32,220 nt of DNA from Candidatus Solincola quzhuomuensis (GTDB lineage Bacteria; Actinomycetota; Geothermincolia; Geothermincolales; RBG-13-55-18): assembly GCA_015711855.1 (NCBI GenBank), contig JACVJF010000019.1, positions 1-32,220 of the forward strand. The letters are read 5' to 3'. Below the pieces are notes generated by a model that searched no databases, was not told where the DNA came from, and saw only the letters and a list, made by a program, of their open reading frames with translations. Shown one piece after another: positions 1 through 32,063 of this stretch. Within the stretch, counting starts at the first letter, position 1. Every line of letters starts with the position of its first letter. Made by a program: the position numbers and the translations under genes.

Positions 1-266
1 TTCCTCTCCCGCCTCGCCCCGCTTGGTGGGGCATTCGGGATCCAGACAGAAGGTCCAAGGTTTCCTCCCCTTACTCACCATCCTAACCCGGGGCGATCCG
101 CACTGGGGACAGACCTCGTCCGTGGGGTACCTATCCATTTTCCTCTCCCGCCTCGCCCCGCTTGGTGGGGCATTCGGGATCCAGACAGAAGGTCCAAGGT
201 TTCCTCCCCTTACTCACCATCCTAACCCGGGGCGATCCGCACTGGGGACAGACCTCGTCCGTGGGG
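1..266. repeat. Exact tandem direct repeat (127 bp, period 139) at the left edge
   Basis: Bases 1-127 are identical to bases 140-266; the copies are separated by 12 bases (128-139). Identity stops at 127/266 (next base t versus a) and on the left it runs into the window edge. Each copy encodes, on the minus strand, the last C4 zinc ribbon of topoisomerase I. The inner copy (140-266) is in frame with topA. The period of 139 is not a multiple of three, so the outer copy is shifted by one frame and lies beyond the TAG stop at 131-133. It is either a recent tandem duplication with a frameshift or a product of assembly: 127 is a common largest k-mer in de Bruijn assemblers, and contig ends often carry a k-length overlap. 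Confidence 0.95.
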
Positions 267-2170
267 ACCAGGTTACCGTTCTGGGGAAGGGGATAGGTGA
301 CCGTGCATTCCGGATAATTGCTGCAGCCCACGAACCTCTTCTTGCTCTTTTTGGCCCTAACCACCCGAAGCTGAGACCCGCAGCGCGGGCAGCTCCCCAG
401 TATGCGGTCCTCCTTTATGCCGTTGCGGATCTCGGCGGCCACCTCCGACTTGCTGTCCTCCAGGAGGCGCATCACCTCCTCCAGCATCTCCCGAGACTTG
501 TCCACCACCTCCAGGCGGGTCTCCGCACCCTCGGCGATGGCGTCCATGTCCCGCTCCAGGGCGGCGGTCATCTCCGGAGAGGAGATGACCCCGGCGAACT
601 TGCGAAGGGCTTCGGTAACGGCGATCCCCGTCTCCGTGGGAGCGATGGGGTCCCCGTATATGTAGCCCCGCTGGTAGAGGCTCTCGATGATGGCGTGGCG
701 GGTGGACTTGGTCCCCAGCCCCAGCTCCTCCATCTTCTCGATGAGCTTTCCCTGGGTGTAGCGCGGCGGCGGCTGGGTCTCCCCTCGCTTGGGGGGCGGT
801 GCCTCCACGACCTCAACCACCTCGCCCGGCTCCAGGTGAGGCAGGTCCGTCTCGCGTTTGCGCCCGTAGGGATAATATCTGTACCATCCCTCCTCCAGGG
901 TGTGCGAGCCCCGGGCCACGAAGGGCTCTCCTCCGCATGAGAGGTCGGCCCGCACGTTGATCACCCGCGCCTCCCCCGCCAGAGTGGCCATGAACCTCCT
1001 GGCCACGAGCTCGTATATCTTCCATTCCTGAGGCGAAAGGTCCCCGGAAGATGCGGAGGCCGTGGGGTGTATGGGAGGGTGATCCGTGGACTGCTTCTTT
1101 CCCCGCGTAGGCACCAATTTTTCCCTCTTCAAGAGCTCCTGGCTCAGCTCTCCCAGCTCGATGCTCCCGGTCAACTCCCTTAATATCCCCCTCAGGTCCA
1201 GGGAAGGGGGGTACACCGTGTTGTCCACTCGCGGATAGCTTATATACCCGTTCATGTATAGGTTCTCGGCCAAGCTCATGGCCTTGGCCGCGGAGAAGCC
1301 CAGGGAAGCGGCGGCGGTGAGCAGACCGGTGGTGTTGAAGGGCGGCGGGGGTTTGACGGTCTTCTCGTTCAGCTTTACCTCTTTCACGGAAGCCGTGTTC
1401 TCCAGGCGGGCATGCGCCCGCTCCGCCTCCTCCCGAGTGGGAAAGCGCTCGCGGGCGTGGGTGGCCTGGAAGATCTCCCCGTCCTTGCGGCATTCGATCT
1501 TCAGAGTCCAGAAAGGGGTGGGGACGAATTCCTTGCGCTCCTTCTCCCGATCCACGATGAGGGCCAGGGTCGGGCTCTGGACCCTCCCCACGGAAAGGAA
1601 GTTCTTTCCAAGACGCGTGGAGGCCAGGCTTATGAAGCGGGTGAGGCTGGCACCCCATATCAGATCTATGTCCTGCCTGGCCTCTCCCGCCGAGGCCAGG
1701 TTGTAGTACGGATCCTCCAGGCGAGCGAAGACCCTCTTTATCTCCGAAGGGGTGAGCGCGGAGAAGCGGGCCCGCTTCACCTTTATCTCGGGACGCACTT
1801 CCCGGATGAGGTTGATGGCGTCCACGCCGATGAGCTCCCCCTCCCGGTCGAAGTCGGTGGCGATTATGACCTCGTCCGCCTTGCGGGCCTCGCTCTGCAC
1901 CATCCTGATCAGGGATTTGTTGGTAGGGACCTTGACGATCTCGGCGCGGATAAGCTGTCGAGGCTCCACTTCCTGCCATTGTTGATATTCGGGAGGGAAA
2001 TCCACCTTGAGGATGTGGCCCTTGAGACCCAGGCAGTGGACCTCGTCCCCGTTCATGCGGAACACGTAAACCGGGTTTCGGGGAGACCCGACGGCCCGCG
2101 CTTTTCCTCCGGACAGGATGGTGGAGATCCTCCGCGCCGTCGTGTTCTTCTCCGTTATTATGAGCTTCAT
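131..2170 (-). CDS. topA: DNA topoisomerase I, archaeal-type (type IA)
   Basis: Type IA topoisomerase that relaxes negatively supercoiled DNA through a 5'-phosphotyrosyl intermediate. About 679 residues. The Toprim domain starts at residue 1 ([14 protein letters not shown]) and carries the acidic motif TDFDREGE at about 105-112. The catalytic tyrosine is in [10 protein letters not shown], about Tyr312. Two C4 zinc ribbons end the protein (CPRCG...CSNYPEC and CPQCG...CLDPEC). The opening and layout match the archaeal topA family rather than the E. coli form, as I recall those families. The ATG at 2170 is preferred because GGGGAG lies about 7 bases upstream; a reading-frame extension to 2275 has no such support and no family-like residues. 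The gene ends in a tandem repeat, and a one-base change at 128-139 would extend the protein with a further zinc ribbon, so the true C-terminus is uncertain. Confidence 0.93.
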
Positions 2171-2365
2171 GCGTCCGCTCCCCGGCCCAAGCCCTTGATG
2201 GAAATTCCTGGCATTATGCTCGCATGCCGTTCGACCGGCCACCGGGCCATCGACTTTCCCGCAAACATTCGGCAAATATCCGTACCATATTTAGACCGGT
2301 GCGTCAAGAAAACCTTCCCGGCGGTGTTCGCCGCTTTCTTTCCTTAATTTTCCATGATAATGGCG

Positions 2366-2408: not shown

Positions 2409-4544
<2,136 letters not shown>

Positions 4545-4659
4545 ATCTCACTCCTTCCCTTTCTACGACCCGGTCTCCGGTTGCACGGTATATGGAAAAG
4601 GGGCTTTCCCCACTCGCTCTCGATTCGTCCCGCGAAACCGCTTGTCCCGAACGCGCTTC

Positions 4660-4684
4660 GAGCACCTGATATGATCCGGTGCTC
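4660..4684 (-). other. Hairpin in the hppA leader
   Basis: Perfect 7-bp inverted repeat, GAGCACC (4660-4666) and GGTGCTC (4678-4684), with an 11-base loop, inside the roughly 200-base hppA 5' leader. Nearer the gene, a short GGGG-AAAG-CCCC stem followed by TTTT (minus strand) could act as a weak attenuator. I recognise no riboswitch class. Function unknown. Confidence 0.45.
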
Positions 4685-4737
4685 CGCATCCATCTCGCTG
4701 AAGGCCTCCGCCGGTTGATCCTTCAACAAGTCCGCTG

Positions 4738-4766
4738 TTGAAAATTCGGAATGTCGAAATTATAAT
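4738..4766 (+). promoter_or_regulatory. Sigma-70 promoter of the DtxR-type gene
   Basis: TTGAAA (4738-4743), a 17-base spacer and a consensus TATAAT (4761-4766). Transcription would start near 4773, giving a leader of about 34 bases to the ATG at 4807. Both hexamers are mirrored on the minus strand about the centre 4762.5, so this promoter overlaps the hppA promoter completely. Confidence 0.85.
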
Positions 4767-4787
4767 TTGGGATACTCAAAATTTCAA
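4759..4787 (-). promoter_or_regulatory. Sigma-70 promoter of hppA, mirror image of the dtxR promoter
   Basis: On the minus strand TTGAAA (4787-4782), a 17-base spacer and TATAAT (4764-4759). The two -10 boxes share the palindrome AAATTATAATTT (4757-4768). The predicted start is near 4752. RNA polymerase can probably occupy only one direction at a time. Confidence 0.82.
4766..4780. promoter_or_regulatory. Candidate operator in the dtxR/hppA promoter
   Basis: TTTGGGATACTCAAA is a near-palindrome centred on 4773. It covers the predicted start of the regulator gene and the spacer of the hppA promoter, where a bound repressor would block both. A related sequence (ATTT, GG, ATAC, C, AAAATTT) occurs at 21228-21249 before the V-ATPase operon. 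The size and form suit a DtxR-family site, but assigning it to the adjacent regulator is inference. Confidence 0.4.
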
Positions 4788-9193: not shown

Positions 9194-11830
9194 TCAAGCG
9201 GAATGCTTGATGTCGCAGAGAAGGAGGGTGAAGTCGTCCTCCATGCGCGCCCCGCAGAATTCGTTGAGGATGTTTACCAGATCCTGGATGAGCGCCTCCG
9301 CGTTGCGGGAACCGGAACCCTTGAGATAGCGGCGTAATCGCTTCTCCCCGAAACGCCTGCGCCGGGAATCCCGGCAGTCGACCACACCGTCGGTGTAGAA
9401 AAAGAGTCGGTCTCCCGGCTCCAACTTTACCGATTCCGCCCTCAGCTCGAGTTCCTCGAAAGCCCCCAGGATGGTCCGCGGTCCAGACTCCAGGGGTAGG
9501 ATCTCCCCTCCCTTGCGGATGAGGTAGGGGTCGTTGTGGCCGGCGTTCACGTAACGGAAGTCGAGGGTGTGGAGATCCAGCTCACCGTAGAGCACGGTGA
9601 TGAAGCGGTCCTCGAGGCGGTGCGGGAATATGGCCCGGTTGGCCTTCAGCAGGACATCCAGTATCTCCCGGCGATACTTGGCCTCGGCCCTTATGGCGCT
9701 CATGGCCAAGGTGGCCAAGAGCGCCGCCGGTATCCCGCTTCCCGCCGCGTCTCCCACCACGATGAAAAGACGACCGTCCTCCACCCAGTAATCGTACCAG
9801 TCGCCTCCCACTATGCGGGCCTGTTCCATGTGGGCGGTCACCCTCACCACGTCGTTCTCCAGCGTGCCCTCCGGGAGCAGGGCGTTCTGGATACTGGCGG
9901 CTATGTCCAGCTCCTTGTCCACCAGCGCCAGGTGTTGCAACCTCTTCTGCTCGGTCACGTCCCGGAAGGCACAGACGACGTTCTCTATCTGCCTCTTGCG
10001 ATTGCGGATGACGGAGAAGGTCCCGCTGATCCACACAGTGTTCCCGTCGCGGCGACGGTACTCCATCTCCAAGGCGATCGACTTCTCTCCCCGAAAGGCG
10101 GCCTCCACCGGGCAGTCGGGGACGGAACAGGACCCCGGCTCCGGGTTCTCCTCGCCGTAAAGTATCTCGTGTATGTGCCGGCCCAGCGCCTCCTCCTCCC
10201 GCCAGCCGAAAAGCTCTCCCGCCGCGGGGTTGAAGAGGATCACGTTCCTCCCGCGGTCCACCAGGAGTATGGCGTCGGGGTTGGCCGAGACTATGGCCTC
10301 GCTGCGCTCCCGCTCCCTATATATCCGCTCGTTGGCCTCCAGTTCCTGGAGTCTCCTCTCTCGTTCCTGGATGCGCTGGCGCAGGCCGGCCTGGGAGACG
10401 GCTACCGCCGCCTGGGCGGCCATCACCCTGACCGTCTCCACCTCCTCCTCGGTGAAGACGCGGGGCCTTCCCGCGTCTCCCAGGATCATGAGCCCCATGA
10501 TCTCTCCCTTGGAGAAAAGGGGGACGGCCAGGCAGGACCTCAGCTTGAAGGAGCGGATGTGATCCCTGTTGACCCGCTGGTCTTTCTCCGCATCCGTGAC
10601 CGCTCCCATCTCCCCCCTCTGGAGCACCTTTCTCGTGAGGTGGTCCAGTTCCGCGGACTTCCAGCGGACCCCACGCAACTTCCGGTTCGCCGGCACGGTC
10701 AGGCCGTGTCCGCGGACGAACTCCAGCTCCTCCTCGTCCGGATGGTACAAGAAGAGCAGGCATCTCTCTACCCCGGCAAACTCGGCCATCTTCCGGACCA
10801 CGATCCCCGCCGCCTGATCGAAATTGACGGCGGACGCCGCCTCCTCGGCCAGCTCTTTCATCATCTCCATCTGGCGGCTCCGCTTCCTCTCCAGCTCGAA
10901 GAGGCGCGCGTTCTGGATGGCCACTCCGGCCTGAGGGGCAAATGCGGCCAAAAGGGCCATGTCCACGGGATGGTAGGTACGGGGTTCCACGTCGTAAAGT
11001 TCTATCCCCCCTATGGGCGCATGGTCCTTAAGGATGGGGCAGGAAAGGGCGGAACGGACCCTTCCGCCCTTCAGAGGAACGGGCAAAGCCAGGCCTCTGA
11101 GGCCGTCGTCCACGCCGCTTACCGGCGCACCCTCTCCGATGGCGCGATCGAGGAGGGAGCGGCGTAGGTCGATCCTCCTGCCCTTGCCCCAGGGAGGAGC
11201 CAGCCCCACCTGGGAGACCAGCACAAGTTCCTTTCCTCCCTCATCCAGAAGATAGACAGCTCCCATGGGGGAGCGCATGATCCCCGCGGCAACTTCCAGA
11301 ATCTGGAGAAAAACCCGGTCCAGGTCCATGGTGGAAGTTATGGTGCGCCCCACTTCCAGGAGGCCGTGCAGCTCCCGCAATTGGCGGCTGATCATCTCGT
11401 CCTTGGTCTCCAGGTAGGAAGCGGATAGAGCGGCGATGATGTCCGCATAGATCTCTCCCTGCGCCTTGAGAAAGCTCATCCATTCCTCAGGGGTAAGAGC
11501 CCCCTCGGACAAGGCCGGAAAAACCCGTTCCCAGAGGACGGACTCGGCCATGAACACCGCCCGCACCAGATCGCCCAGGGGGATGTTCTGCAGGGCACGA
11601 TTCCTTCCCAGCCGGCGGGCGAAGGCGTAAAGCTCGTCCCGGTCTCCCCCGCGTCCGGTGAGTAGATCGGAGGAGTAGCGGATAAGATCGCCTATGCGGC
11701 GACGGAGGTCTTCCTTGGTGTCGTCCGAAAGAGCGGCGTATGTGGGCAGGCTCTCCTCGAGGGCTTCGTGTATCTCCTGGACCAGATCCGGGAGGCGCAA
11801 GGGGAGTTTTCCGGCGATTTCCCTAAGCAT
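9194..11830 (-). CDS. Multidomain sensor phosphatase: RsbRD-like N-domain, GAF-GAF-PAS-SpoIIE (PP2C)
   Basis: Predicted soluble 878-residue signalling phosphatase of the RsbU/SpoIIE type, which normally dephosphorylates an anti-sigma-factor antagonist in a partner-switching pathway. In order: an all-helical N-domain at about 1-140 resembling the RsbRD/RsbT co-antagonist N-terminal domain; GAF 1 at about 150-310; GAF 2 at about 345-490; a short coiled coil (QRIQERERRLQELEANERI); PAS at about 510-625 (SANPDAILLVD...) with two cysteines at GSCSVPDCP; and the SpoIIE PP2C domain from about 640 to the end, with metal-binding aspartates in GGDWYDY, VVGDAAGSG, FFYTDGV and EDDFTLLL. No transmembrane helix is evident. 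The ATG at 11830 follows GGGAGATCCC. It is transcribed from its own promoter at 12010-12039, just after the V-ATPase terminator. The partner anti-sigma proteins are not in the window. Confidence 0.9.
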   Translation of the reverse strand: MLREIAGKLPLRLPDLVQEIHEALEESLPTYAALSDDTKEDLRRRIGDLIRYSSDLLTGRGGDRDELYAFARRLGRNRALQNIPLGDLVRAVFMAESVLWERVFPALSEGALTPEEWMSFLKAQGEIYADIIAALSASYLETKDEMISRQLRELHGLLEVGRTITSTMDLDRVFLQILEVAAGIMRSPMGAVYLLDEGGKELVLVSQVGLAPPWGKGRRIDLRRSLLDRAIGEGAPVSGVDDGLRGLALPVPLKGGRVRSALSCPILKDHAPIGGIELYDVEPRTYHPVDMALLAAFAPQAGVAIQNARLFELERKRSRQMEMMKELAEEAASAVNFDQAAGIVVRKMAEFAGVERCLLFLYHPDEEELEFVRGHGLTVPANRKLRGVRWKSAELDHLTRKVLQRGEMGAVTDAEKDQRVNRDHIRSFKLRSCLAVPLFSKGEIMGLMILGDAGRPRVFTEEEVETVRVMAAQAAVAVSQAGLRQRIQERERRLQELEANERIYRERERSEAIVSANPDAILLVDRGRNVILFNPAAGELFGWREEEALGRHIHEILYGEENPEPGSCSVPDCPVEAAFRGEKSIALEMEYRRRDGNTVWISGTFSVIRNRKRQIENVVCAFRDVTEQKRLQHLALVDKELDIAASIQNALLPEGTLENDVVRVTAHMEQARIVGGDWYDYWVEDGRLFIVVGDAAGSGIPAALLATLAMSAIRAEAKYRREILDVLLKANRAIFPHRLEDRFITVLYGELDLHTLDFRYVNAGHNDPYLIRKGGEILPLESGPRTILGAFEELELRAESVKLEPGDRLFFYTDGVVDCRDSRRRRFGEKRLRRYLKGSGSRNAEALIQDLVNILNEFCGARMEDDFTLLLCDIKHSA

Positions 11831-12039: not shown

Positions 12040-12068
12040 AAAGCGTGCCGCGGCCCATTATCCGCGGC
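12038..12068 (-). terminator. Intrinsic terminator of the V-ATPase operon
   Basis: GCCGCGG (12047-12053) and CCGCGGC (12062-12068) form a perfect 7-bp stem with an 8-base loop. On the minus strand TTTTT (12042-12038) follows after a 4-base gap. The stem begins inside the last codons of the subunit D gene and its stop codon lies in the loop. Confidence 0.82.
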
Positions 12069-12693
12069 CAGCCAGCTCCTCCTGCATGCTCTTTATCTTC
12101 ATGAGCTGGGTACGATAGGAGCGCTCCATCTCGTCCAGCTTCATGGTGATGTAGGTGATGGTCTCCTTCAGGGAGGGGATGAGCACGTGCTCCAGGGCGT
12201 TCACCCGGCGCCGGGTGCGCTCTATCTCCTGGGCCAGAAGACCCACGTTGTTCTCCATCTCCGCGAGCTTGATCAGCTCGGGCACGAGGTCTCGGTAGTA
12301 GAGGAGGGCGGCGTCCAGTGAGAAGGGGGTGGAGAGGAGGCTGTAGCAGTCTATCGCGCCCTCCATCCTCACCTCGAAGCGGGGCACGCGCACGCCCATA
12401 ATGCTGGCTTGATCCACGTCCACCTCCAGGTCCATGGTGGGGACGGAGAGGGATTCCTCCACCTCCTCGGTCATGACCTCGGAGCGGGCTATGGCGAAGA
12501 TGAGATGGGCATCGGCCAGGCGGGACTCCACCTCACGGCGCAGATTCCGGCTTTCCTGGACCAGGGCCATGAACTGTTTCATGAGCTCGTCAAGCTTGTC
12601 CTTGAGCAGCTTGTGGCCCCGCTCCGCGATGGCTGTGCGCTTGCGCAGCTTGAGCAGCTCCATGCGGTTGGGGTTCACCTGGATGCGCGCCAT
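12058..12693 (-). CDS. ntpD: V/A-type ATPase subunit D (central rotor shaft)
   Basis: Central-stalk subunit that turns inside the A3B3 head; homologue of eukaryotic V-ATPase D and functional analogue of F1 gamma. 211 residues. The protein starts with the family signature ARIQVNPNRMELLKLRKR, has long N- and C-terminal helices predicted to form the antiparallel coiled coil, and a C-terminal run EIERTRRRVNALEHVLIPSL that is highly typical of NtpD. The ATG at 12693 has GGAGGAG about 7 bases upstream. Last gene of the operon, 40 bases after subunit B; the operon terminator overlaps its stop. Confidence 0.96.
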   Translation of the reverse strand: MARIQVNPNRMELLKLRKRTAIAERGHKLLKDKLDELMKQFMALVQESRNLRREVESRLADAHLIFAIARSEVMTEEVEESLSVPTMDLEVDVDQASIMGVRVPRFEVRMEGAIDCYSLLSTPFSLDAALLYYRDLVPELIKLAEMENNVGLLAQEIERTRRRVNALEHVLIPSLKETITYITMKLDEMERSYRTQLMKIKSMQEELAGRG

Positions 12694-12733
12694 CTTACGC
12701 TCCTCCTGGACGGGGACCTTGGCCCTTGCCCTC

Positions 12734-14110
12734 TTAACCCATATTATCCATATATTTCCTTATGTGCTCCTCCTTGACCCTCTTCAGCTCCGCACGGGGC
12801 AGGATGCGTAGAAGGTCCCAGCCGATGGCCAGGGTCTCCTCAATGCTGCGGTCCTCGTACTCGCCCTGGCGGATGAAGCGGTCCTCGAAGGCCTCGCTGA
12901 ACTGCACGAAGAGCCTATCCTCCTCGGAGAGGGCCGCTTCCCCCAGGATTACCGCCAGCTCCTTGGCCTCCTTGCCCCGAGCATAGGCCGAGAAGAGCTG
13001 GTTGGATAGGGGCGAGTGGTCCTCGCGGGTCTTGCCCGGGCCGATGCCCTTCTCCTTGAGGCGGGAGAGGGAGGGCAGGACGTCGATGGGCGGGTAGACG
13101 CCCCTCCGGTGCAAGTCCCGGGAGAGTATGATCTGCCCCTCGGTGATGTAACCGGTAAGGTCGGGGATGGGGTGGGTCTTGTCGTCGTCGGGCATGGAGA
13201 GCACCGGGATCTGGGTGATGGACCCCCGAGCCTCCTTTATCCTTCCCGCGCGCTCGTAAATGGTGGCCAAGTCGGTATATAGGTAACCGGGGTATCCCCT
13301 CCGCCCGGGCACTTCCTTGCGGGCCGCGGAGATCTCCCGCAGGGCCTCGCAGTAATAGGTCATGTCGATGAGGATGACCAGGACATGCATGTCCAGGTCG
13401 AAGGCCAGATACTCCGCGGCGGTGAGGGCCATGCGCGGGGTGGCGATGCGCTCGATGGCCGGGTCGTCGGCCAGGTTGATGAAGAGGACCGCCCGTTCTA
13501 TGGCCGCCGTGGAGCGGAACTCCTGGATGAAGAACTCCGCCTCCTCGAAGGTGATGCCCATGGCGGCGAAGACCACGGCGAACTCCTCCTCCGCTCCCAG
13601 CACGCCGGCCTGACGGGCGATCTGGGCAGCGAGGCGAGAATGGGGCAATCCGGCACCGGAGAAGATGGGGAGCTTCTGTCCTCGCACCAAGGGGTTGAGG
13701 CCGTCGATGGCCGAGATGCCGGTCTGGATGAAGTCGGTGGGAAAGTCCCGCGCGTAGGGGTTGATGGGGTTTCCGTTGATGTCCAGCCTCTTGTCCGGGA
13801 TGATGCGCGGCCCGTTGTCGATGGGGCGGCCCAGGCCATCGAAGACCCGTCCCAGGATGTCCCGGGATACCGGGAGCTCCAAGCCGCGACCAGTGAAGCG
13901 CACCTTGGTCCGGGCTATGTTCAGGCCGCTGGTGGCCTCGAAGGACTGCAGGAGGACCAGGTCCTCCTCCACCTCCAGGACGTTCCCCAAACCCACGGAG
14001 CCGTCCGGAAACTCCACCTCCACCAACTCGTTGTACTTGGCTCCCTCCACGCCCTCCAGAAGGATGAGAGGCCCCACGATCTCCTTTACCGTCAGGTACT
14101 CCTTGAGCAT
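12734..14110 (-). CDS. ntpB: V/A-type ATPase subunit B (non-catalytic nucleotide-binding)
   Basis: Regulatory subunit of the A3B3 hexamer, 458 residues, the usual length. The P-loop position has the degenerate sequence [16 protein letters not shown] instead of a Walker A motif, as expected for B. Other family marks are [12 protein letters not shown] at the start, the arginine-finger region [25 protein letters not shown], and [32 protein letters not shown]. The ATG at 14110 is chosen because AAGGAG lies nine bases upstream. An upstream GTG at 14131 in frame is less likely, since that same Shine-Dalgarno would lie inside the coding region. The gap to subunit A is 143 bases (14111-14253), unusually wide for this operon, and I see no gene or clear signal in it. 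Confidence 0.96.
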
Positions 14111-14253
14111 CTTCTCCGACTCCTTCCCCACTCGTATCTACATGCCGCGCCGGCACCCCCGGCTTTTTATCCTTTCCGCAGCGGATCACGGTCCTTTCTC
14201 CGTCCTCACGGCTATTTTCCGTTCGGGCCGTTCGCCGCCCGGCTTGCCACGCC

Positions 14254-16017
14254 TCAAGCCCTCACCTCCGAAGCCCGCCCGGCCAGCTGCTCGGCCACCT
14301 TCTCCTCCAGGCGGTCGAACCTCTCCAGCTCCTCCTCGGGGATGAACTTGGCCCGGGCGATCTCCTCCTGCACCGGGAGGTCGATGAGCTCCTCGACGGG
14401 CCTCCCCTTTTCCAGCTCCCGGGCGGCTAGGCGGTGGTAGGTCATGATCAGTCTGAGCAGTCGGTACTGCTTGCGCAAGGAGGTGAAGGCGTCCGCGTCG
14501 TCGAAGGCGTTTTGCTGCAGGAAGTCCTCCCGCAGGGACTTGGCCGTCTCCATGATCAGCCGCTCCTGGTCGGAGAGGGCCTCGATGCCGATGAGGCGCA
14601 CCACTTCCTGGAGCTCCGCCTCTCTCTGCAGGATGCCCATGGCCTCCTCGCGCAGCTCGGCGTAGGCCGGCTCCACCTCCCTCCTCCAGTAATCCTCCAC
14701 CTTGTCCAGGTAGAGGCTATAGCTGTTCAGCCAGTTGATGGCCGGGAAATGGCGGGCGAAGGCCAGCCGGTCCTCCAGCCCCCAGAAGACCTTGACCACT
14801 CGCAAGGTGGCCTGGGTCACCGGCTCGGATAGATCGCCGCCCGGAGGGGATACGGACCCTATGGCGCTCACCGAACCCTCCCGCCTGTCCTTGCCCAGAC
14901 ATACCACCCTCCCGGCCCGTTCATAGAAGGCGGCCAGGCGGGTGCCCAGGTAGGCGGGATAGCCTTCCTCGCCGGGCATTTCCTCCAGCCTCCCCGAGAT
15001 CTCCCGCAAGGCCTCCGCCCAGCGTGAGGTGGAATCAGCCTGTAGGGCCACGTGGTATCCCATGTCCCGGTAATATTCGGCGATGGTGATGCCCGTGTAA
15101 ACCGATGCCTCGCGGGCGGCCACCGGCATGTTGGAGGTGTTGGCGATGAGCACGGTGCGCAGCATGAGGGGCTCCCCGCTGTATGGGTCGGTTAGTTCGG
15201 GGAACTCGAGGAGCACGTCGGTCATCTCGTTCCCCCGCTCCCCGCAGCCCACGAAGACCACGATCTGGGCATTGGCCCACTTGGCGATGGCGTGCTGCAG
15301 GACGGTCTTTCCCGAACCGAAAGGTCCGGGCACGCAGGCCGTACCACCCTTGGAGATGGGGAAGAAGGTGTCCACTATGCGCTGCCCGGTGACCAGCGGC
15401 TCTTGGGGGGTCATCTTCTCCGCATAAAGACGGGGGCGGCGCACCGGCCAGCGCTGCATCATGGTAACCGGAACCTCCCCTTTGGGGGTCTCCACCACGG
15501 CCACCACGTCCTCCACGGTGAACTCCCCTTCCTTGATCTCGGAAACCTTCCCCTCCACCCCCACGGGGACCATTACGCGGTGGGTGATGACCTTGGTCTC
15601 GGGGACGGTGCCCAGGATGTCCCCCGGCCCTACTTGGTCTCCAACCTTCACCGCGGGGGTGAAGGCCCACCGGCGCTCGCGGCTGAGGCCGGGTTCCTCC
15701 ACTCCCCGGGTCACGTAGTTCCCGTACTTGGCCCGGATGACGTCCAGTGGGCGCTGCACACCGTCGTATATGGAGGTCAAAAGTCCCGGCCCCAGCTCCA
15801 CGCTGAGAGGCTCACCCGTGGATATCACCTCGTCCCCCGGCCCAAGACCCGCCGTCTCCTCGTACACCTGGATGGAGGCCAGGTTTCCCCGCAGCTCGAT
15901 GATCTCCCCCATGAGGCGGTCCTTGCCCACCTTGACCAGGTCATACATCTTGGGATCGGGCAGGTCTCTGGCCACCACCAGGGGTCCGGAAACCTTGACC
16001 ACTACTCCCGCTTCCAT
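14254..16017 (-). CDS. ntpA: V/A-type ATPase subunit A (catalytic)
   Basis: Catalytic subunit that hydrolyses or makes ATP in the A3B3 head. 587 residues, normal for bacterial and archaeal A subunits. Walker A is GPFGSGKT at 231-238, typical of this family. The A-specific non-homologous insert at about 115-185 is present ([16 protein letters not shown]...), and [15 protein letters not shown] and the region [24 protein letters not shown] are intact. The ATG at 16017 has GGGGAG seven bases upstream; a longer in-frame start at 16062 adds residues not seen in the family. It lies 81 bases after subunit F. No intein or frameshift is seen. Confidence 0.97.
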
Positions 16018-16098
16018 CTGGCTCTCCCCTCTTTTCCACGTGTTCCTCGATCCACCGCACAACGGTCTCGGATATATTTCCAGATTATCCCAACCAAA

Positions 16099-16428
16099 TC
16101 ATCTCTCCAAGTCGGCACCCACCGCCTTCACGATGCGCTCCCGCATCCGGGCCACGGCCATCTCCCGGGTCCCCGTCACCGCCGGTATCACCAGCACCAC
16201 GGGCAGCCCGCCGAAGGGAGGGAACCCGGGTATCTCCCGCTCCAGCACCTCGAAGACCGGCTCGGTGACCATGACCACCGCGTATCTGTCCAGGTCCAAT
16301 CCCTGCCATATGCGCGGGCCGTCCTCGGGGAGGGGGGCCACGAAGGTCTCCACTCCCAGGGCTCGAAAACCCAAGGTGGAGGTCCTGCCCCCGATCATGG
16401 CCACCTTTTTGCCCGCCATCTGCGTCAT
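16099..16428 (-). CDS. ntpF: V/A-type ATPase subunit F
   Basis: Small central-stalk subunit that binds subunit D and modulates rotation. 109 residues, normal length. The Rossmann-like fold is recognisable from KKVAMIGGRTSTLGFRALGV, YAVVMVTEPVFEVLE and LPVVLVIPAVTG. Two starts are possible: ATG 16428 directly after GGGGAGGAGG, and ATG 16419 (MAGKKVAMIGG) nine bases past the same Shine-Dalgarno. The second gives the more typical N-terminus. It sits between C and A in the usual operon order. Confidence 0.93.
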   Translation of the reverse strand: MTQMAGKKVAMIGGRTSTLGFRALGVETFVAPLPEDGPRIWQGLDLDRYAVVMVTEPVFEVLEREIPGFPPFGGLPVVLVIPAVTGTREMAVARMRERIVKAVGADLER

Positions 16429-16490
16429 CCTCCTCCCCTTAAGGCATCATCCTCGCTCCTCCACGGCGTATACGCGCCTGCTCGCCGCCG

Positions 16491-17606
16491 CTACTCCAGG
16501 TAGGGCTTGCGGAGCATCTTCTCTATGGCCTCCGGGGCCAGGTTGTGCAGCTTGGCCATGAGCAGCATGCGCACCATGGTCACCTCGTTCTCTCGAGCCC
16601 GCACGAAGGCGAACACCGGCTCCGCCCCCACGGAGATGCGGCGGCTAGCCCGGAGCATGTCCATGATGTAATCGTCGCTTTTCCGGTCGAAGTCGCTCAG
16701 GCTGGGTTTCTCCTCTCCTTCCCCCAGGATCTCCAGCAGGCGGGAGGAATACCGGGTCTGTTCCAGCTTGCGCATCATCACCTCTTCGGGGTCGCCGTAG
16801 ACCTCAAGGATATAGGTGACGGGGATGTATCCCCCTTCCACCAGGGACCTCTGGAAGACCTCCCGGTCCTTGCCCAGTTGCCGCGCCCGCAATAGCGCCT
16901 TGAGGTTGGCGAAATCTATGCTCGTACGGGAGAACTCCAAAAGGAAGTCGCTCCCCTCCCGCCGCGCCAGATACAGGCGATAGCGCAGGAAGTGGCGGTC
17001 GATGACCGTCTCCGCTTCCGGCGGGGAGGGCTCTTTCTCCAGCACCTCCACCACCACTTCCTTGTACGGGGAAGGTAGCTCCAAAGGATTCTCCACACCC
17101 CGCCTCAGTACCTCTACGTCTATCCTCCCCAGTCGAGGCAAGAGGGCTTCCTCCCCCGTCCCCTCCAGCCGCGCCTTGAGCAGGACCTTGAGGTTGTGGA
17201 AGTCGTACCGGCAGTGGAAGAACTCGAAGAGCACCGAGTCCTTAGGCAGGGCTTCCCGCAAGAACTCGTAAACGTCGTGGAGATAATCGATGAGAGCGTC
17301 GTCCACCTCCCGGGCCGTGGAGGCGCCGGCCAAGTAGTCCCCCATCTCCACCTCGTCCAGGATGTGCAGGGCCTCCTGGAAGTCGGCCTCGATGAGCCTC
17401 CCCACGTGATGGGGCATGAGCAGCCTCATCTCCTGGGCCCTTATCCTCCCCACGGCGTGCCCGTAGCGGAGGGTCTCGTGGAAGGGCTTGATGGCCCCCA
17501 GGTCGATGCGCAGGTAATCCGGCAATTTCTTCAGCTTCCGGCCCTCCGCCTGGGGTGAGGGCTGCTCCTTCAGGGGATCCACCTCCAGCCGGTACTTGCG
17601 GTACAT
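16491..17606 (-). CDS. ntpC: V/A-type ATPase subunit C (V0 d-like)
   Basis: Funnel-shaped linker that seats the central stalk on the proteolipid ring (homologue of AC39/V0 d). 371 residues, predicted all-helical and soluble. The family is recognised from LLMPHHVGRLIEADF, the repeated pattern FFHCRYDFHNLKVLLKARLEG / FSRTSIDFANLKALLRARQLG, and the C-terminal EPVFAFVRARENEVTMVRMLLMAKLH. Three related helical repeats are typical of this subunit. The ATG at 17606 has AAGGGG upstream and lies only 7 bases after the subunit E stop, so the two are probably translationally coupled. Confidence 0.93.
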   Translation of the reverse strand: MYRKYRLEVDPLKEQPSPQAEGRKLKKLPDYLRIDLGAIKPFHETLRYGHAVGRIRAQEMRLLMPHHVGRLIEADFQEALHILDEVEMGDYLAGASTAREVDDALIDYLHDVYEFLREALPKDSVLFEFFHCRYDFHNLKVLLKARLEGTGEEALLPRLGRIDVEVLRRGVENPLELPSPYKEVVVEVLEKEPSPPEAETVIDRHFLRYRLYLARREGSDFLLEFSRTSIDFANLKALLRARQLGKDREVFQRSLVEGGYIPVTYILEVYGDPEEVMMRKLEQTRYSSRLLEILGEGEEKPSLSDFDRKSDDYIMDMLRASRRISVGAEPVFAFVRARENEVTMVRMLLMAKLHNLAPEAIEKMLRKPYLE

Positions 17607-17613
17607 CTACCCG

Positions 17614-18225
17614 TTATCCCCTTTCCTCCGGCCCGAATAGAATGCGGGAGACCTCCTCCTCGCACTCCTCACGCACCTTTTGCAGGACGGCCTCTGCCGA
17701 GAGATTGGTCTCTGTCTTCTCCCCGCGCAGGATGACCCCCCTCTCGAAGGGGGCGTCTTCCTCCGCCAGCCTCAGCTCCCCGGCCAGACCGCGCGAGCGA
17801 AGCTCCTCGTTCAGCTCCGTGAGCAGGCCTCCGTCCAGGAGTTCCCGGTCGTGCGGCGAGGGCACCAGTTCCTCCTGCCCGCTGCCCACGTTCACCAGGA
17901 GGACGGCTTTGAGCCAGGACCGGTATTCCTCGGCCGGCAGCCGACCGAAGGACGCGGAGACCTCCCGGAAGACCTCCTCCAGCACCTGATCCTTGGCCGC
18001 CAGGAGGTCGATGCGTCCCTCCAGTCGGGCCCGGCTGATTATCCTCAAGCGCTCGTTCTCCGCACGTATATGGAAGGATCTGGCAATGGCTTCGGCCTCC
18101 TGTCCGGCTTGCTCCTGCGCCTCCTTCCTAATCCTGGCGGCCTCTTCCTCCGCCTCGGCCAGGATGCGTCGTCTCTCCTCCCGGGCGTCGTTCTCGATCT
18201 TCTCCAGCAGCTTCTCCAGGGACAT
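17614..18225 (-). CDS. ntpE: V/A-type ATPase subunit E (peripheral stalk)
   Basis: Peripheral-stalk (stator) subunit that pairs with the H/G subunit as a right-handed coiled coil and binds the head. 203 residues. The first 100 or so residues are a charged coiled coil (ENDAREERRRILAEAEEEAAR...), followed by a mixed globular domain ending in DDPPLERG-like acidic and basic stretches (EEDAPFERGVILRGEKTETNLS), where AERGVIL/ERGVIL is typical of E subunits. ATG 18225 has GGGAGAG upstream. It lies between K and C as in other ntp operons. Confidence 0.92.
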   Translation of the reverse strand: MSLEKLLEKIENDAREERRRILAEAEEEAARIRKEAQEQAGQEAEAIARSFHIRAENERLRIISRARLEGRIDLLAAKDQVLEEVFREVSASFGRLPAEEYRSWLKAVLLVNVGSGQEELVPSPHDRELLDGGLLTELNEELRSRGLAGELRLAEEDAPFERGVILRGEKTETNLSAEAVLQKVREECEEEVSRILFGPEERG

Positions 18226-18246
18226 CTCTCTCTCCCGCGCCGGGCG

Positions 18247-18762
18247 TCAGATTCCCAGGGTCGAGTAGAAGGGCCTGATGACCACGAAGAAGTAGAGGAT
18301 GGTGATGATCAAGGAGAGCACGGCGTAGGTCTCCACCAACGCCGGGAGCACCAAAGCCCTCCCCATCTCCTCGCGCCTCTTGGCCACCATGCCCGCCGCG
18401 CCGGCCGAGGTCAACCCCTGGTAGGCTCCGGATACGAAGCACACGAAGCATACCGGCAGGCAGGCCAGGAATATCTGGAAGCCTACCCAACCGGGGAGCG
18501 CCTCCCATCCCGAACTCGGCTTCATGACGAAGGCCACCAGAACCCCAGTGATGAAACCGTAGATCCCCTGTGTGCCGGGGATGACCACCAGGGGGAGCAG
18601 GGGTCCGAACCGGTCCGGCATATCGGTGAGGATGCCACCGGCCACGTTGGCCACGTAGGTGATGCCCATGGAGGACCCCGAACCTCCTCCTATCACCGCC
18701 AGCGCGGCTCCCAGCAGCGCCCAGTGCAGGCCGGACAGTCCTCCGAATGTCGCTGCTTCCAT
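18247..18762 (-). CDS. ntpK: V-type ATPase subunit K (proteolipid ring) with Na+-binding signature
   Basis: Membrane rotor-ring subunit, 171 residues, two fused hairpins (four transmembrane helices), as in Enterococcus hirae NtpK. The residues that bind Na+ in the E. hirae enzyme (Thr64, Gln65, Gln110, Glu139, with Tyr68 closing the site) are all present here: PGTQGIYG gives Thr64, Gln65 and Tyr68, AYQG gives Gln115, and LVETYAVL gives Glu144. One carboxylate serves two hairpins, as expected for a doubled c-subunit. This points to Na+ coupling, although some H+ enzymes keep parts of the site. A strong AAGGAGG Shine-Dalgarno lies between the I stop and the ATG at 18762. Confidence 0.95.
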   Translation of the reverse strand: MEAATFGGLSGLHWALLGAALAVIGGGSGSSMGITYVANVAGGILTDMPDRFGPLLPLVVIPGTQGIYGFITGVLVAFVMKPSSGWEALPGWVGFQIFLACLPVCFVCFVSGAYQGLTSAGAAGMVAKRREEMGRALVLPALVETYAVLSLIITILYFFVVIRPFYSTLGI

Positions 18763-18774
18763 GCCTAACCTCCT

Positions 18775-20748
18775 TTAGCGATCGTCTATTACCACTTTCT
18801 CCGTGCGGAGGGCGAAAGGCGCGAAGGGCTCCCCTCCATCCTCGTAGAACTTCCCGAAGAACTCCACGTACTGCAGCCTCAACGGATGGACGAAGGCGCT
18901 CAACAGGTTGATGAGCAGATTAAAGATATGTCCCCCCACCAGGATGACCACCATGCCGATGATCCCCAAGACCGGGATGCCCAGCACCATCCCGGCCATG
19001 CGATTGACCACGCTGCCGATGGCTACCGTGGCCATGCCCAGGGCGTAGAGACGTAGGTAAGAGGCTACATCCCCGATGGTTCCCCCGAACAACCCATAAA
19101 GATTATAAAGACCGCCGAAGAACTTGCCCAGGACGCTCTTGCTGGAGATGTTGGAGAGGAAGACCACCCCGGCGGCCCCTCCCGCCAAGAGTATCGTGCC
19201 CACCGTCTGCACCGGCTTGACCTTGACCCCGCCCCCCAGGGCCATGACCGCCAGTCCCAACCACATGAGGAGAGTGGTCCCTTGCTCGCAGAAGCCCAGC
19301 CATATGGAGTTCTGGCGCATGTTGTCGTACATCTCGATGGCCACGCCGATGGAGATGTGCAAAAGGCCCAGTCCGGCGCATATGAGCATCATGGGCACGG
19401 GGTTCATAAGAACGTCCAGGGAGCCCTTGAACTTGAGGAAAGAGGGCAGCGACTCGCTCTCGACGCCGAACCATCCGCGGGTGAATATACCCACCACGAC
19501 GGCGGCCACTCCGCAGTACATGATGAGGCGGAAGAATCGCCTGGCCGCCTCGGAGAGGTCCAGCTTCCTCTGCACCAACCAGGTCACCAGGGCGAGTATG
19601 GCTCCATATCCCACGTCCGCGATGCACATCCCGAAGAAGAGGATGAAGAAGGGGGCCACAAAGGGCGTGGGGTCGGTCTCCGCGGGATGGGGTAGTCCGA
19701 AGAGGTTGATGAGGCTCTCGGCGGGTTTCACCCTCCTACTGTTGACCAGGAGGGTGGGGGGCGTTTCCCCCTCCTCGGGGGGGGAGAAGGAGACGTCCAA
19801 TTCCTCCCCCAGATCCGCCAGCCCTTGTAGTAGCTCCTCCCGGCGCGAATCCTCCACCCATCCCTCCACAGCCACCACCCGCTCCGTGCTCAGGAAGTTC
19901 TCCTTCACCTCCTCCTTGAGCAGGAGGTTGCGGAGATAATCGTTGAGGGCCAAGAGCTTGGGTTTGATCGGAAGTTTTTCTCTTATCCGCGACTGGAGGT
20001 CCTCCTTGACGGCCTCTTCCTCCTTCAATTCCCCTTCCAGCCGTCGGATCTCTTCCTCCGGGGTTCCCTCCAGGCCCAGGAAGGAGACCTCCTCCAGGCC
20101 GTATTTCTGCGCCAGCGCCTGGTAGGTATCCAGGGACTCGCGGTGCACGAGGACGGCCAGGTATAGGCGCTCTCCCTCCCGGTGCAGCTCCACCCAGGTG
20201 GAGTGCGGACAGGCCGCCTCCATCTCCTCCGCCCAGGCGGCATAGGAGAGAAGTCCCATGGTCGCTAGCCCGACCCGGCACCAACGCAGTCGTGCGAGAT
20301 CAGCCAGGGGAAAGGCCAGTCCTCTCCAGGGGTGCAAGGCCTCCAGGTTTCTTCTGATCTCCGTGATGCGACTCTCGGCGTGCCGGAGCTGGATGTCCAC
20401 CTCCTCCAGGTCCCGATAGACCTCCTCCAGGTCCACTTCCCGCTCCACCCGGATGAACTCCTCGTAGGTGAGGTGGACCCTTTCCTGCATAAAGCCTCCC
20501 AGCAGGCCACCCCTTTTGTCCTCGAAGCGGCTCAGGAGATCGAGGAGGAAGTCGGACCGGGAGAGGGCCAGCCTAAGTTCCCTTGCCTCGGGCCGGCAAG
20601 GTCGGGCCACTTCGTCCAGTTCGTCCCCCAGTTGGGAGGGAAGGTTCACCACGTGTACGGCCCCCAGCTCGTAAAGACGTTGGATGAGCTCGTCTCTCCG
20701 CTCGCAGGGAGCCAGGATGGCGACCTTGGACATCCTGGCGACGGGCAT
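18775..20748 (-). CDS. ntpI: V/A-type ATPase subunit I (a-subunit, ion channel)
   Basis: Membrane stator subunit that forms the two ion half-channels beside the K ring. 657 residues, normal length. The N-terminal half (to about 330) is a soluble region with long charged helices that anchor the peripheral stalks (VARMSKVAILAP at the start; VEGWVEDSRREELL near 285). The C-terminal half has about seven to eight transmembrane helices, including FFILFFGMCIADVGYG, the region LYGLFGGTIGDVASYLRLYALGMA that carries the essential arginine (SYLRLYALG), and GGHIFNLLINLLSAFVHPLRLQYVEFFGKF. The ATG at 20748 has GAGGTGA upstream; ATG 20733 is an alternative. The start of subunit K follows the stop by 12 bases. 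Confidence 0.95.
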   Translation of the reverse strand: MPVARMSKVAILAPCERRDELIQRLYELGAVHVVNLPSQLGDELDEVARPCRPEARELRLALSRSDFLLDLLSRFEDKRGGLLGGFMQERVHLTYEEFIRVEREVDLEEVYRDLEEVDIQLRHAESRITEIRRNLEALHPWRGLAFPLADLARLRWCRVGLATMGLLSYAAWAEEMEAACPHSTWVELHREGERLYLAVLVHRESLDTYQALAQKYGLEEVSFLGLEGTPEEEIRRLEGELKEEEAVKEDLQSRIREKLPIKPKLLALNDYLRNLLLKEEVKENFLSTERVVAVEGWVEDSRREELLQGLADLGEELDVSFSPPEEGETPPTLLVNSRRVKPAESLINLFGLPHPAETDPTPFVAPFFILFFGMCIADVGYGAILALVTWLVQRKLDLSEAARRFFRLIMYCGVAAVVVGIFTRGWFGVESESLPSFLKFKGSLDVLMNPVPMMLICAGLGLLHISIGVAIEMYDNMRQNSIWLGFCEQGTTLLMWLGLAVMALGGGVKVKPVQTVGTILLAGGAAGVVFLSNISSKSVLGKFFGGLYNLYGLFGGTIGDVASYLRLYALGMATVAIGSVVNRMAGMVLGIPVLGIIGMVVILVGGHIFNLLINLLSAFVHPLRLQYVEFFGKFYEDGGEPFAPFALRTEKVVIDDR

Positions 20749-20767
20749 CTCTCACCTCTGAACCACG

Positions 20768-21103
20768 TTAAAAGGAGGCCCTCCCGGCCTCCTTCAATCT
20801 TTTCAGCAGGAAAGCTACCGCCTCTTCCTTTCGTCCCCGGGCGGCTTCCAGCATGGCGGACTTCCTTCGGCCGAATTCGGCGGCGATTTCCTCGGCCTCC
20901 CGCCTGGCCTCCTCCAGCCTCCGCTCCAGCTCCTGCTCGCCGGCTTCCCGCGCTCTCTGCCTTCCCACCTCCATGTGGGCTTCCGCTTCCGCCCGGGCTT
21001 TCTTGACCAACTCCTCCGCCTCCCGTCGAGCGTCGGCGATGACCTGCGAGGCGCTATCCTCTGCTTCTTTGACCCTCCTTAACTTCTCCGCCGAGGTCTT
21101 CAT
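20768..21103 (-). CDS. V/A-type ATPase subunit H/G (peripheral stalk coiled coil)
   Basis: First gene of the operon. 111 residues, nearly all predicted coiled coil rich in Glu, Lys, Arg and Ala (KAEDSASQVIADARREAEELVKKA...), matching the AhaH/NtpF-like partner of subunit E in the stator stalk. Low-complexity composition makes the family call rest partly on position: it directly precedes subunit I, as in Thermus and archaeal operons. ATG 21103 has AAAGGG eight bases upstream. The stop is 19 bases before subunit I. Confidence 0.82.
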   Translation of the reverse strand: MKTSAEKLRRVKEAEDSASQVIADARREAEELVKKARAEAEAHMEVGRQRAREAGEQELERRLEEARREAEEIAAEFGRRKSAMLEAARGRKEEAVAFLLKRLKEAGRASF

Positions 21104-21474: not shown

Positions 21475-22122
21475 TCAACCGGTGAGGATGCGCTTCAGTT
21501 CCGCCTCCTTTTCCGGTTCGGTAACCGCGATCACCGTGTCCCCCGGCTGGAGGACCGTACTACCCTGAGGAATGATGACCTCGTCCCCGCGTATGATGGA
21601 CACCAACACGCAACCCTGGGGAAGGCCGAGATCACGCAGGGGAACCTCGCACGAGCGGCAGCGGTTCTCCGGGAGGTCCAGCTCCACCATCGCCAGCTTT
21701 CCCTTCTTCAGCGTATGCAGTGTTATGATGTCCCCTACCGTGGTCCTTTCCTCGATGAGCTGGGCGATGACCGTGGTGCTGGATATGGCGTCTATGCCCA
21801 GGCGGTTGAAGATCCTCTCGTTTTTGGGGTTGTTCACCCTGGCCACCGCGCGGGGCACCTGAAAATGCGTGCGCGCCAGCTGGCAGGCGACGAGGTTGTC
21901 GTCGTCGTCCCCGGTGACCGCGGCGAAGACGTCGGCCGTCCCCACCTGGGCCTCCTCCTGAAAACGGAGGTCGCACCCGTCTCCCTGTATGACCAGGGCC
22001 GATGTGTGGGTGGCCAGCCTCTCGCAGAGCTCCCGGTTGCGTTCGATAACCGTGACCTGGTGGCCCTTGGCCTCCAGCGTCTCGGCCAGGAAGGAGCCCA
22101 CCTTCCCTCCGCCCATGATCAC
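21475..22122 (-). CDS. TrkA/RCK-family K+ transport regulator, single module (CeoC-like)
   Basis: Cytoplasmic ligand-binding regulator of K+ channels or transporters, 215 residues. RCK-N Rossmann domain with GGGKVGSFLAE at the N-terminus and Glu at the end of beta-2 (VIERN), indicating NAD(H)- or nucleotide-type binding; AAVTGDDDDNLVACQLA and ARVNNPKNERIFNRLGID follow. RCK-C runs from about 130 to the end. The start is unclear: GTG 22122 is used, but the family N-terminus (M-R-I-V-I-M) would put the first residue at an ATA three codons upstream, directly after GAGGTGAG. Last of four adjacent TrkA-like genes, 123 bases after the double-module gene. Confidence 0.9.
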   Translation of the reverse strand: MIMGGGKVGSFLAETLEAKGHQVTVIERNRELCERLATHTSALVIQGDGCDLRFQEEAQVGTADVFAAVTGDDDDNLVACQLARTHFQVPRAVARVNNPKNERIFNRLGIDAISSTTVIAQLIEERTTVGDIITLHTLKKGKLAMVELDLPENRCRSCEVPLRDLGLPQGCVLVSIIRGDEVIIPQGSTVLQPGDTVIAVTEPEKEAELKRILTG

Positions 22123-22245
22123 GATCCTTATCTCACCTCACCCCTTCCCGCTCCGCAAGGCATACGGATCGTCGGCTACCGGCCCTGATCGCGTTCCGAG
22201 ACCCCTTCCCGCAGGCAGCGGTCACATCTGCCTATCCGGGGCTCC

Positions 22246-23667
22246 CTACGATAAGTGGATCGCTCGTCTTCTCGCGGCTCTCCTCAAGGTCTCCGGCCTC
22301 CCCTCCTGCGCCAACTTCCTGAGGCGGGCCAGGCGCGGAGCCAGCATGGCCGCCACCAGACGGTCACCCTCCTGGAGGGTCATCTCCGGCGAGGCCACGA
22401 GGATCTCGTTCTCCCTGGATACCAGGCCCACCCGGAGGACCTCCTCCTGCTCCATCGCCACAATCCTCTTACCCCGATACCGCCCGGGGCATTCGAACTC
22501 CACGAGCAATACGCGGTTGTTGGCCGTCCGGGACAGCACCCTCGGCCGGGTAGGCATGAGCCTTTCCATTACATGATCCGCCAGGAGCGAGGTCCCGCAT
22601 ATGAATTCTATGCCCAGGGCCTGATAGGTGTCTCCTTTGTCCGGATTGTACAACCTGGAGACCACCCTTTCCGCTCCGTATATGCCCCTGACCACCTCCG
22701 CAGCCATGAGGTTGGTGTTGTCGTAGTTGGTGAGGGCGGCGAAGGCGTCGGCCTCCCTTATGCCCGCTTCCTCCAGGACGTCCATGTCGAAAGCCATGCC
22801 GGTATGGAACTCTCCTTGAAAGGTCTTGCTCAACTTCTCGCCGGCTGCTGGGTCTTTGTCTATCACCGAGACCCCGTAACCGTCCAGGGAGAGCATCTCC
22901 GCAAGCTGTGACCCAACCCGGCCGCACCCGGCAAGGACGATCTTCCATCTACCCCTGTCCTCCCTCGAGGGTCCTCCCGGGCCTAGTGCTTCACCGGGTA
23001 AGTGCTCCGCAAGAGGATGAAAGCCGAGCGCGGATAGGAAATCATCCCAGGAGAACTCCCTGAGGTTCACCGCTAAAACTAGATGATCGCCGGGCTGGAC
23101 GCAACTTCCCCGCTCCAGATAAACGGGCTTCGCCTTCCGGTTCAACGACATAAGCCTGGCCTTGCCCGGTTGCCTAAGTTCATAAAGACGGCAGCCCCGA
23201 CTTCCCGGAGGCACCTCCACCTCTAGGACCTGGAATCCACCGGTTTTTTCCGCATGAACCAGGATACCCTGCCAGGTGAGTTCCCGATGGAAGGCCTGGG
23301 CCAGGATGGCGCTTCCCGAAAGGTAATCTATACCCACGCTCCTGTAGGTGAGCTCCTTGTCCGGGTTGTAGACCCTGGCGATCACTTGGGGGACCCCGAA
23401 CATGTCGGTGGCGATCTCCGCGGCCATGAGGTTGGTGTTGTCGTAGTTGGTGAGAGCTAAGAAGGCATCCGCCTCCTCTATCCCCGCCTCCCGGAGCACG
23501 TCCAGGTCGAAGGCGACGCCGGTGATGGTCAGACCGTTGAAGGGAAGCTCCAATCTCTGGAACGCCTGCGGGTCCCGGTCTATGACCACCACGTTGTGGC
23601 CCTCGTGGGAAAGGAGCACGGCCAACTGCGAGCCTACCCTTCCGCAACCGGCGATGATCACCCGCAT
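22246..23667 (-). CDS. TrkA-like protein with two tandem RCK modules
   Basis: 473-residue regulator built like E. coli TrkA: RCK-N and RCK-C twice. The first Rossmann fold starts at residue 1 (MRVIIAGCGRVGSQLA), the second near residue 240 (KIVLAGCGRVGSQLAEML). Both halves share GCGRVGSQLA, ALTNYDNTNLMAAE and YNPDK, so this is an internal duplication. Both beta-2 strands end in Asp (VVIDRD, SVIDKD), typical of NAD-binding sites. A Gly/Pro-rich linker (LGPGGPSREDRGR) joins the halves. The C-terminus is basic (RRAARRRAIHLS). ATG 23667 has GGGGAAG upstream; the in-frame GTG at 23682 includes that Shine-Dalgarno and is rejected. It is 15 bases after the preceding RCK gene. Confidence 0.92.
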   Translation of the reverse strand: MRVIIAGCGRVGSQLAVLLSHEGHNVVVIDRDPQAFQRLELPFNGLTITGVAFDLDVLREAGIEEADAFLALTNYDNTNLMAAEIATDMFGVPQVIARVYNPDKELTYRSVGIDYLSGSAILAQAFHRELTWQGILVHAEKTGGFQVLEVEVPPGSRGCRLYELRQPGKARLMSLNRKAKPVYLERGSCVQPGDHLVLAVNLREFSWDDFLSALGFHPLAEHLPGEALGPGGPSREDRGRWKIVLAGCGRVGSQLAEMLSLDGYGVSVIDKDPAAGEKLSKTFQGEFHTGMAFDMDVLEEAGIREADAFAALTNYDNTNLMAAEVVRGIYGAERVVSRLYNPDKGDTYQALGIEFICGTSLLADHVMERLMPTRPRVLSRTANNRVLLVEFECPGRYRGKRIVAMEQEEVLRVGLVSRENEILVASPEMTLQEGDRLVAAMLAPRLARLRKLAQEGRPETLRRAARRRAIHLS

Positions 23668-23682
23668 GGTCGTCTTCCCCAC

Positions 23683-24345: not shown

Positions 24346-24355
24346 CACGATCCCC

Positions 24356-25006: not shown

Positions 25007-25139
25007 CTTTTCACCCCCGGTTTCCAATATATTCTATTTCACCGGCTTCCCCACCGCCCGGGCTCTTCCTCTGTTCCCTCCACAATCTCTTATCTCGATA
25101 GTATCATCCGCCGACCGCCCCGCGCACCGCCACGCAAAA

Positions 25140-32003: not shown

Positions 32004-32063
32004 GGACACCTCCTTGCTTCGCTCTGACATTTACAAAGCAAGTATAGGGGGTGTCCACCATGT
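30977..32063 (-). mobile_element. IS481-like insertion sequence, about 1.1 kb
   Basis: The element surrounds one transposase gene. Outward-reading ends match: GGTGTCCACGATGT (minus, 30990-30977) and GGTGTCCACCATGT (plus, 32050-32063), 13 of 14. The similarity continues inward with gaps (AAGCA.G.ATAGGG). A third, internal copy of the motif (GAAGCAAGGAGGTGTCCATG, minus strand 32020-32001) forms the transposase ribosome binding site and start. I see no target-site duplication, so the exact ends are uncertain by a few bases. Confidence 0.85.

Follow-up and report, generated by a model that had tools for sequence, protein, structure and literature searches.

A putative bidirectional promoter-operator element between the genes for a membrane pyrophosphatase and a DtxR-type regulator in Geothermincolia

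Bidirectional promoters of prokaryotes have been defined as promoters in which opposed -10 elements have bases in common and the transcription starts lie about 10-23 bp apart (Warman et al., PMC12825309). RNA polymerases exclude each other at such promoters, and in five bidirectional promoters from E. coli competition had an effect only under strong activation of one direction (PMC12825309). For the DtxR/IdeR regulators the roles of the metal-site residues have been described, and the IdeR half site consists of CCTAA repeats with a 4-bp spacer (PMC10317159). Transcriptional control of a pyrophosphatase gene has been described for Rex, which responds to NADH/NAD+ and binds the palindrome TCGTGAATCAATTCACGA upstream of Streptomyces avermitilis hppA (PMC5355995). 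Besides Rex in Streptomyces, we found no transcriptional control of a bacterial membrane pyrophosphatase in the literature searched. The open-access literature yielded no paper that pairs DtxR with a membrane or proton-translocating pyrophosphatase, and searches on broader topics gave nothing on point.

The mirrored element and its operators

The window, i.e. the whole stretch of 32,220 nucleotides analysed here, carries hppA (PF03030) opposite a gene for a DtxR-type regulator (PF01325, PF02742 and FeoA), the gene pair given in the initial annotation. The two genes are separated by 262 bp (Table 1). Within this gap TTGAAA, a 17-bp spacer and TATAAT are present on both strands, mirrored about position 4762.5. 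Each promoter matches the consensus at 11 of 12 positions, and the block AAATTATAATTT (4757-4768) is common to both. When the 262-bp intergenic region was shuffled 5000 times with dinucleotides preserved, no mirrored pair of at least 11/12 on both strands arose (best shuffle 9), and the same holds for 5000 shuffles confined to its AT-rich 65 bp. Across the 32-kb window no second mirrored pair at 9/12 or better was found. The opposed -10 elements share ATTATAAT, with predicted starts at 4773 and 4752; the predicted promoter is of an already known, bidirectional kind, and what is new, within reach of the open-access literature searched, is the unit of regulator, operator and target.

Table 1. 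Features of the pyrophosphatase-regulator locus (positions in the window)
Feature	Position	Strand	Remarks
Archaeal-type topoisomerase I	131..2275	-	Directly downstream of hppA
hppA, membrane-bound ion-pumping pyrophosphatase	2409..4544	-	PF03030 (H_PPase), 872 bits, above cut-off
hppA leader, ~208 nt	4545..4752	-	Gap from hppA to element 134-438 bp in relatives, unconserved
Bidirectional promoter-operator element	4738..4787	.	Conserved 50 bp, centre 4762.5; putative by sequence
Regulator promoter -35, TTGAAA	4738..4743	+	Invariant in 13 orthologues
Operator 1, core ATTCGGAATGTCGAAA	4744..4759	.	20-bp palindrome 4742-4761, centre 4751.5; putative
hppA promoter -10, TATAAT (plus strand ATTATA)	4759..4764	-	Invariant in 13 orthologues; predicted start ~4752
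Regulator promoter -10, TATAAT	4761..4766	+	Invariant in 13 orthologues; start ~4773 predicted from standard spacing
Operator 2, core TTTGGGATACTCAAAA	4766..4781	.	20-bp palindrome 4764-4783, centre 4773.5; putative
hppA promoter -35, TTGAAA (plus strand TTTCAA)	4782..4787	-	TTGA in 13/13 orthologues
DtxR/MntR-type regulator with FeoA/SH3 domain, 224 aa	4807..5481	+	ATG 4807 behind GGGAGG

Intergenic regions for comparison were taken from orthologous regulator genes in relatives; the nearest named relative of the window's Geothermincolia-type organism is Candidatus Solincola tengchongensis. Among the nearest relatives, 13 of 15 intergenic regions between regulator and hppA keep the element with identical spacing; both the set of 15 regions and the set of 13 orthologues include the window's own genome. 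One locus (L015/G027) has the divergent gene pair and lacks the element. Across the 13 orthologues 34 of the 50 columns are invariant while the flanks are unalignable, and mean pairwise identity is 0.86 in the element as compared to 0.29 and 0.25 in two 50-bp stretches left of it. Variation is greatest in the N4 centres of both palindromes. Allowing 0-2 mismatches in the mirrored hexamers, the 50-mer occurs as one copy per genome in 13 genomes; the only extra place, at 3 mismatches, is in G016. In all 13 sequences the best hppA-ward consensus match is the mirrored promoter.

According to the initial annotation, hppA and the regulator have perfectly mirrored, overlapping divergent promoters, a reading to be abandoned if relatives lacked the mirrored hexamers. 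The mirrored hexamer pair proved exact and unequalled in the shuffles, and the overlapping promoters are borne out by the sequence and by the 13 conserved regions. The mirroring is perfect for hexamers and spacing; in their sequence the two spacers show partial symmetry only.

Dyad symmetry, profiled over the 13 sequences, peaks at 4751.5, 4762.5 and 4773.5, in steps of exactly 11 bp. The outer peaks, 22 bp from each other, are the centres of two palindromes, each with 7 matching pairs out of 10. Operator 1 reads ATTCGG-AATG-TCGAAA and operator 2 TTTGGG-ATAC-TCAAAA. Each operator covers one promoter's predicted start as well as the other promoter's spacer. The near-palindrome at 4766-4780 that had been annotated as operator-like is a real dyad, but it is one of two. 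In the relatives L008-L010 and L014 operator 2 is a weak palindrome.

Neither window operator reads as the canonical DtxR/IdeR box TTAGG-N4-CCTAA. When gapped palindromes upstream of the regulator were counted blindly in 68 loci from outside Geothermincolia, TTTTG-N6-CAAAA and TTTTGG-N4-CCAAAA ranked among the top items. TTTYGG-N4-CCRAAA with at most one mismatch is found in 37 of these loci vs 0.1 expected, leaving 31 without an operator at this threshold. In other classes the operator precedes operons that have regulator and hppA on the same strand, frequently in two copies 22 bp from each other. In a recurring layout the operators are positioned at -76 and -54; TTGACN immediately precedes operator 1, the -10 lies between both operators, and operator 2 lies at the predicted start. 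Upstream of 10 non-linked DtxR paralogues the TTTYGG box was not found; TTAGGN4CCTAA is perfect in three of them and has one mismatch in three more. With TTTYGG boxes at linked loci and TTAGG boxes at non-linked paralogues, the operator motif thus tracks the regulator subfamily. No other operator with at most one mismatch was found in the window's genome beyond this locus. A wider regulon was considered and rejected for this genome, with one 2-mismatch site (C1:36289) and 3-mismatch counts close to control, and likewise for the relatives.

The hppA-ward promoter half and the gene neighbourhood

The symmetry of the element might merely be that of its operators, with hppA transcribed from another promoter further down. 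The AT-rich operator arms indeed make up most of the -10 region, the hppA leader is long (Table 1), and L011 and L013 have a further promoter-like sequence (10/12) that faces hppA at a distance of about 120 bp. However, the outer TTTCAA is no part of the operator cores, and loci in which hppA is not divergent hardly ever have it: a mirrored -35 scoring 4-5/6 is present in 10 of the 11 divergent loci vs 2 of the 37 same-strand loci (background level), in a rank test that compares loci without correction for relatedness. Since the divergent loci form one clade, this contrast counts as one evolutionary event. Two exceptions to it are informative. In G005 (L160, G005:C56:4700-6250) no regulator gene lies between hppA and its neighbour; the regulator-ward -35 has decayed, while both palindromes and the hppA-ward half (TTGAAT-17-TATGAT) are retained. 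As this genome is 78% complete, the regulator may lie elsewhere, in an unbinned contig. In G015 the regulator has another nearby promoter, and the hppA-ward half TTGCAA-17-TACAAT is kept. Survival of this half both where the regulator gene is missing and where it has its own promoter argues against a symmetry of operators only, which we consider unlikely.

Upstream of hppA in 10 genomes of the same class or family that lack the regulator subfamily beside hppA, the operator and the mirror are absent. In Geothermincolia a one-way promoter with two operators, like that of other classes, was probably the origin of the mirrored arrangement; a second -35 and a symmetric -10 would have been gained when hppA lay divergent. 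The locus lends itself to a clean, natural comparison of how bidirectional promoters evolve, the same operators being combined with a one-way promoter in tandem loci and with a mirrored one in divergent loci.

The window hppA carries a GNTTA motif, also found in the linked hppA genes of close relatives, and is presumably of the K+-dependent type. By the GNTT[A/K] motif, which we take to distinguish K+-dependent from K+-independent pyrophosphatases, the linked pumps comprise 19 K+-dependent and 40 K+-independent enzymes. In two loci of the same genus, L006 and L007 (G002 and G001), the hppA product beside an unchanged element is a much more distant homologue, only 54-56% identical to that of the window (N-terminal part); the pump has apparently been exchanged in situ. 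An RNA element in the hppA leader was rejected, the best Rfam match being mraW (19/50 bits, below the gathering score).

The topoisomerase I passes the TIGR01057 and PRK07220 cut-offs but not that of bacterial topA. Its gene also lies downstream of hppA in close relatives and, judged by position alone, is possibly co-transcribed with it. Further away, a V/A-type ATPase operon (12058-21103, minus strand) is found in the neighbourhood of the pyrophosphatase, its rotor subunit (18247-18762) identified by Pfam and the remaining subunits assigned from sequence only. Four consecutive TrkA-type genes (21475-25027, minus strand), one with a double TrkA_N, adjoin a P-type cation ATPase (25140-27935). 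A large GAF-GAF-PAS-SpoIIE phosphatase (9194-11830, minus strand) is a probable signalling protein, and a transposase gene with an integrase core (rve; 30975-32030, minus strand) lies near the contig end.

The regulator subfamily and its metal site

When 84,980 species genomes were searched with a profile, hppA lay within the locus in 72 of the 80 subfamily members found, a proportion that describes the hppA-linked subfamily and not DtxR at large, since the query alignment was built from linked members. Eleven of these loci are divergent, and in most others hppA follows the regulator on the same strand. Near non-linked paralogues hppA was found in none of the loci checked. In a quick tree with several long branches the subfamily was split from the non-linked paralogues with 100% support. 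As judged from these genomes, the regulator-hppA association is phylum-wide and spans many classes of Actinomycetota.

The regulator belongs to the DtxR fold by its Pfam scores for Fe_dep_repress (60.6 bits, cut-off 26) and Fe_dep_repr_C (93 bits, cut-off 27), and its top PDB matches are metal-dependent regulators; the NCBIfam equivalog cut-offs for MntR (158.8/350 bits) and DtxR (102/290 bits) are not reached. The primary metal site of the DtxR family is composed of Met10/Asp8, Cys102/Glu99, Glu105 and His106, from which the window regulator, with D15, L107, E110 and N111, departs. In hppA-linked members the position of DtxR Cys102, which is Glu99 in MntR, is occupied by L, V, P, G, T, A, S, R or I, and in the window's clade the His106 position is N, T, S or G, whereas both Cys and His are intact in the seven non-linked paralogues examined. 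The window's genome also encodes a second, ligand-intact DtxR paralogue. The ancillary site comprises His79, Glu83 and His98 plus two ligands from the SH3 domain. His79, Glu83 and Glu105 are retained throughout; the window's clade has H84, E88 and H103 (corresponding to His79, Glu83 and His98), and many same-strand members have Asp at 98.

The initial description of the protein as a metal-sensing repressor is not supported, given the loss of ligands that the non-linked paralogues sampled keep. These replacements make a classical Fe/Mn switch appear less likely, while metal binding at the ancillary-type site is possible. Because the primary site is altered and the ancillary-type ligands are kept, the signal may be some other ligand or a metal that binds chiefly at the ancillary-type site. 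The altered site makes it possible to test how the signal of a metalloregulator fold changes.

Proposed regulation and comparison with known systems

Probably the 50-bp element is a bidirectional promoter for hppA and a dedicated regulator of the DtxR subfamily, with two operators for this regulator that would serve co-repression and autorepression. The promoter elements, their conservation, the operator motif and its tie to the subfamily are present in the sequences, and from these we infer binding of the motif by the subfamily protein, repression and the positions of the starts. The regulator would bind one or both of the dimer-sized operators that overlay the promoter and block RNA polymerase both ways, by which the pump would be co-repressed and the regulator autorepressed; a signal that removes the regulator would allow the polymerase to take the site in one direction or the other. 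As each operator spans one start and the spacer of the other promoter, a bound repressor should shut both directions.

The initial annotation had instead a metal-sensing repressor tipping a hard-wired either/or between transcription of hppA and of the regulator. The promoters fully overlap and both are near consensus, so competition between them is possible; steric exclusion is established at bidirectional promoters, and the regulator is a member of the Fe_dep_repress and Fe_dep_repr_C families. The exclusion part of this proposal stands, but competition was negligible at basal strength in the five tested E. coli promoters (PMC12825309). The repressor should close both directions rather than shift the balance, since its two operators cover both promoters symmetrically, and the ligand replacements at Cys102/Glu99 and, in the window's clade, His106 also speak against a metal-operated choice, to which we give little credence. 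Activation instead of repression is known for some targets of IdeR (PMC10317159) but is very unlikely here, with operators in spacers and on starts, positions typical of repression, and with 17-bp spacers that need no MerR-type correction. That the regulator is an ordinary cellular Fe/Mn regulator placed incidentally beside hppA would fit its family membership and its PDB matches, but is highly improbable in view of the linkage seen in most subfamily loci and at none of the non-linked paralogue loci checked, the ligand-intact paralogue in the same genome and the absence of another good operator there.

We tentatively suggest that Actinomycetota may have a regulator family dedicated to membrane pyrophosphatases. 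It would be a branch of DtxR without the canonical metal switch, its operator changed from TTAGG-N4-CCTAA to TTYGG-N4-CCRAA, that senses another energy or pyrophosphate signal, or metal by a new site, and governs both K+-dependent and K+-independent pumps, the promoter having been made symmetric in Geothermincolia. The subfamily and its recognisable operator offer direct access to the question of what the cell senses before it switches the pump on.

Similar to the prokaryotic bidirectional promoters described by Warman et al. (PMC12825309), such as soxR/soxS and acrR/acrA, the window element has a symmetric -10 region common to opposite promoters and lies between a regulator and its divergent target. 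Its predicted starts, 21-23 bp apart, are close to the 23-bp class of that study. Unlike those promoters, it also mirrors the -35 elements and the 17-bp spacers, near consensus, and its symmetry incorporates two operators for the regulator. Rex in S. avermitilis is likewise a case of transcriptional control of an actinobacterial hppA (PMC5355995), by a palindrome that differs from and is unrelated to the window operators. With DtxR/IdeR and MntR the window regulator has the winged-helix, dimerisation and FeoA/SH3-like domains in common, and the GG-N4-CC spacing of its operators is like that of the IdeR half site (PMC10317159). It differs from these proteins in the replaced Cys102/Glu99 ligand and the His106 lost in its clade, in an operator of the form TTYGG-N4-CCRAA vs TTAGG-N4-CCTAA for DtxR/IdeR, and in its apparent target, which is a pyrophosphatase instead of metal uptake.
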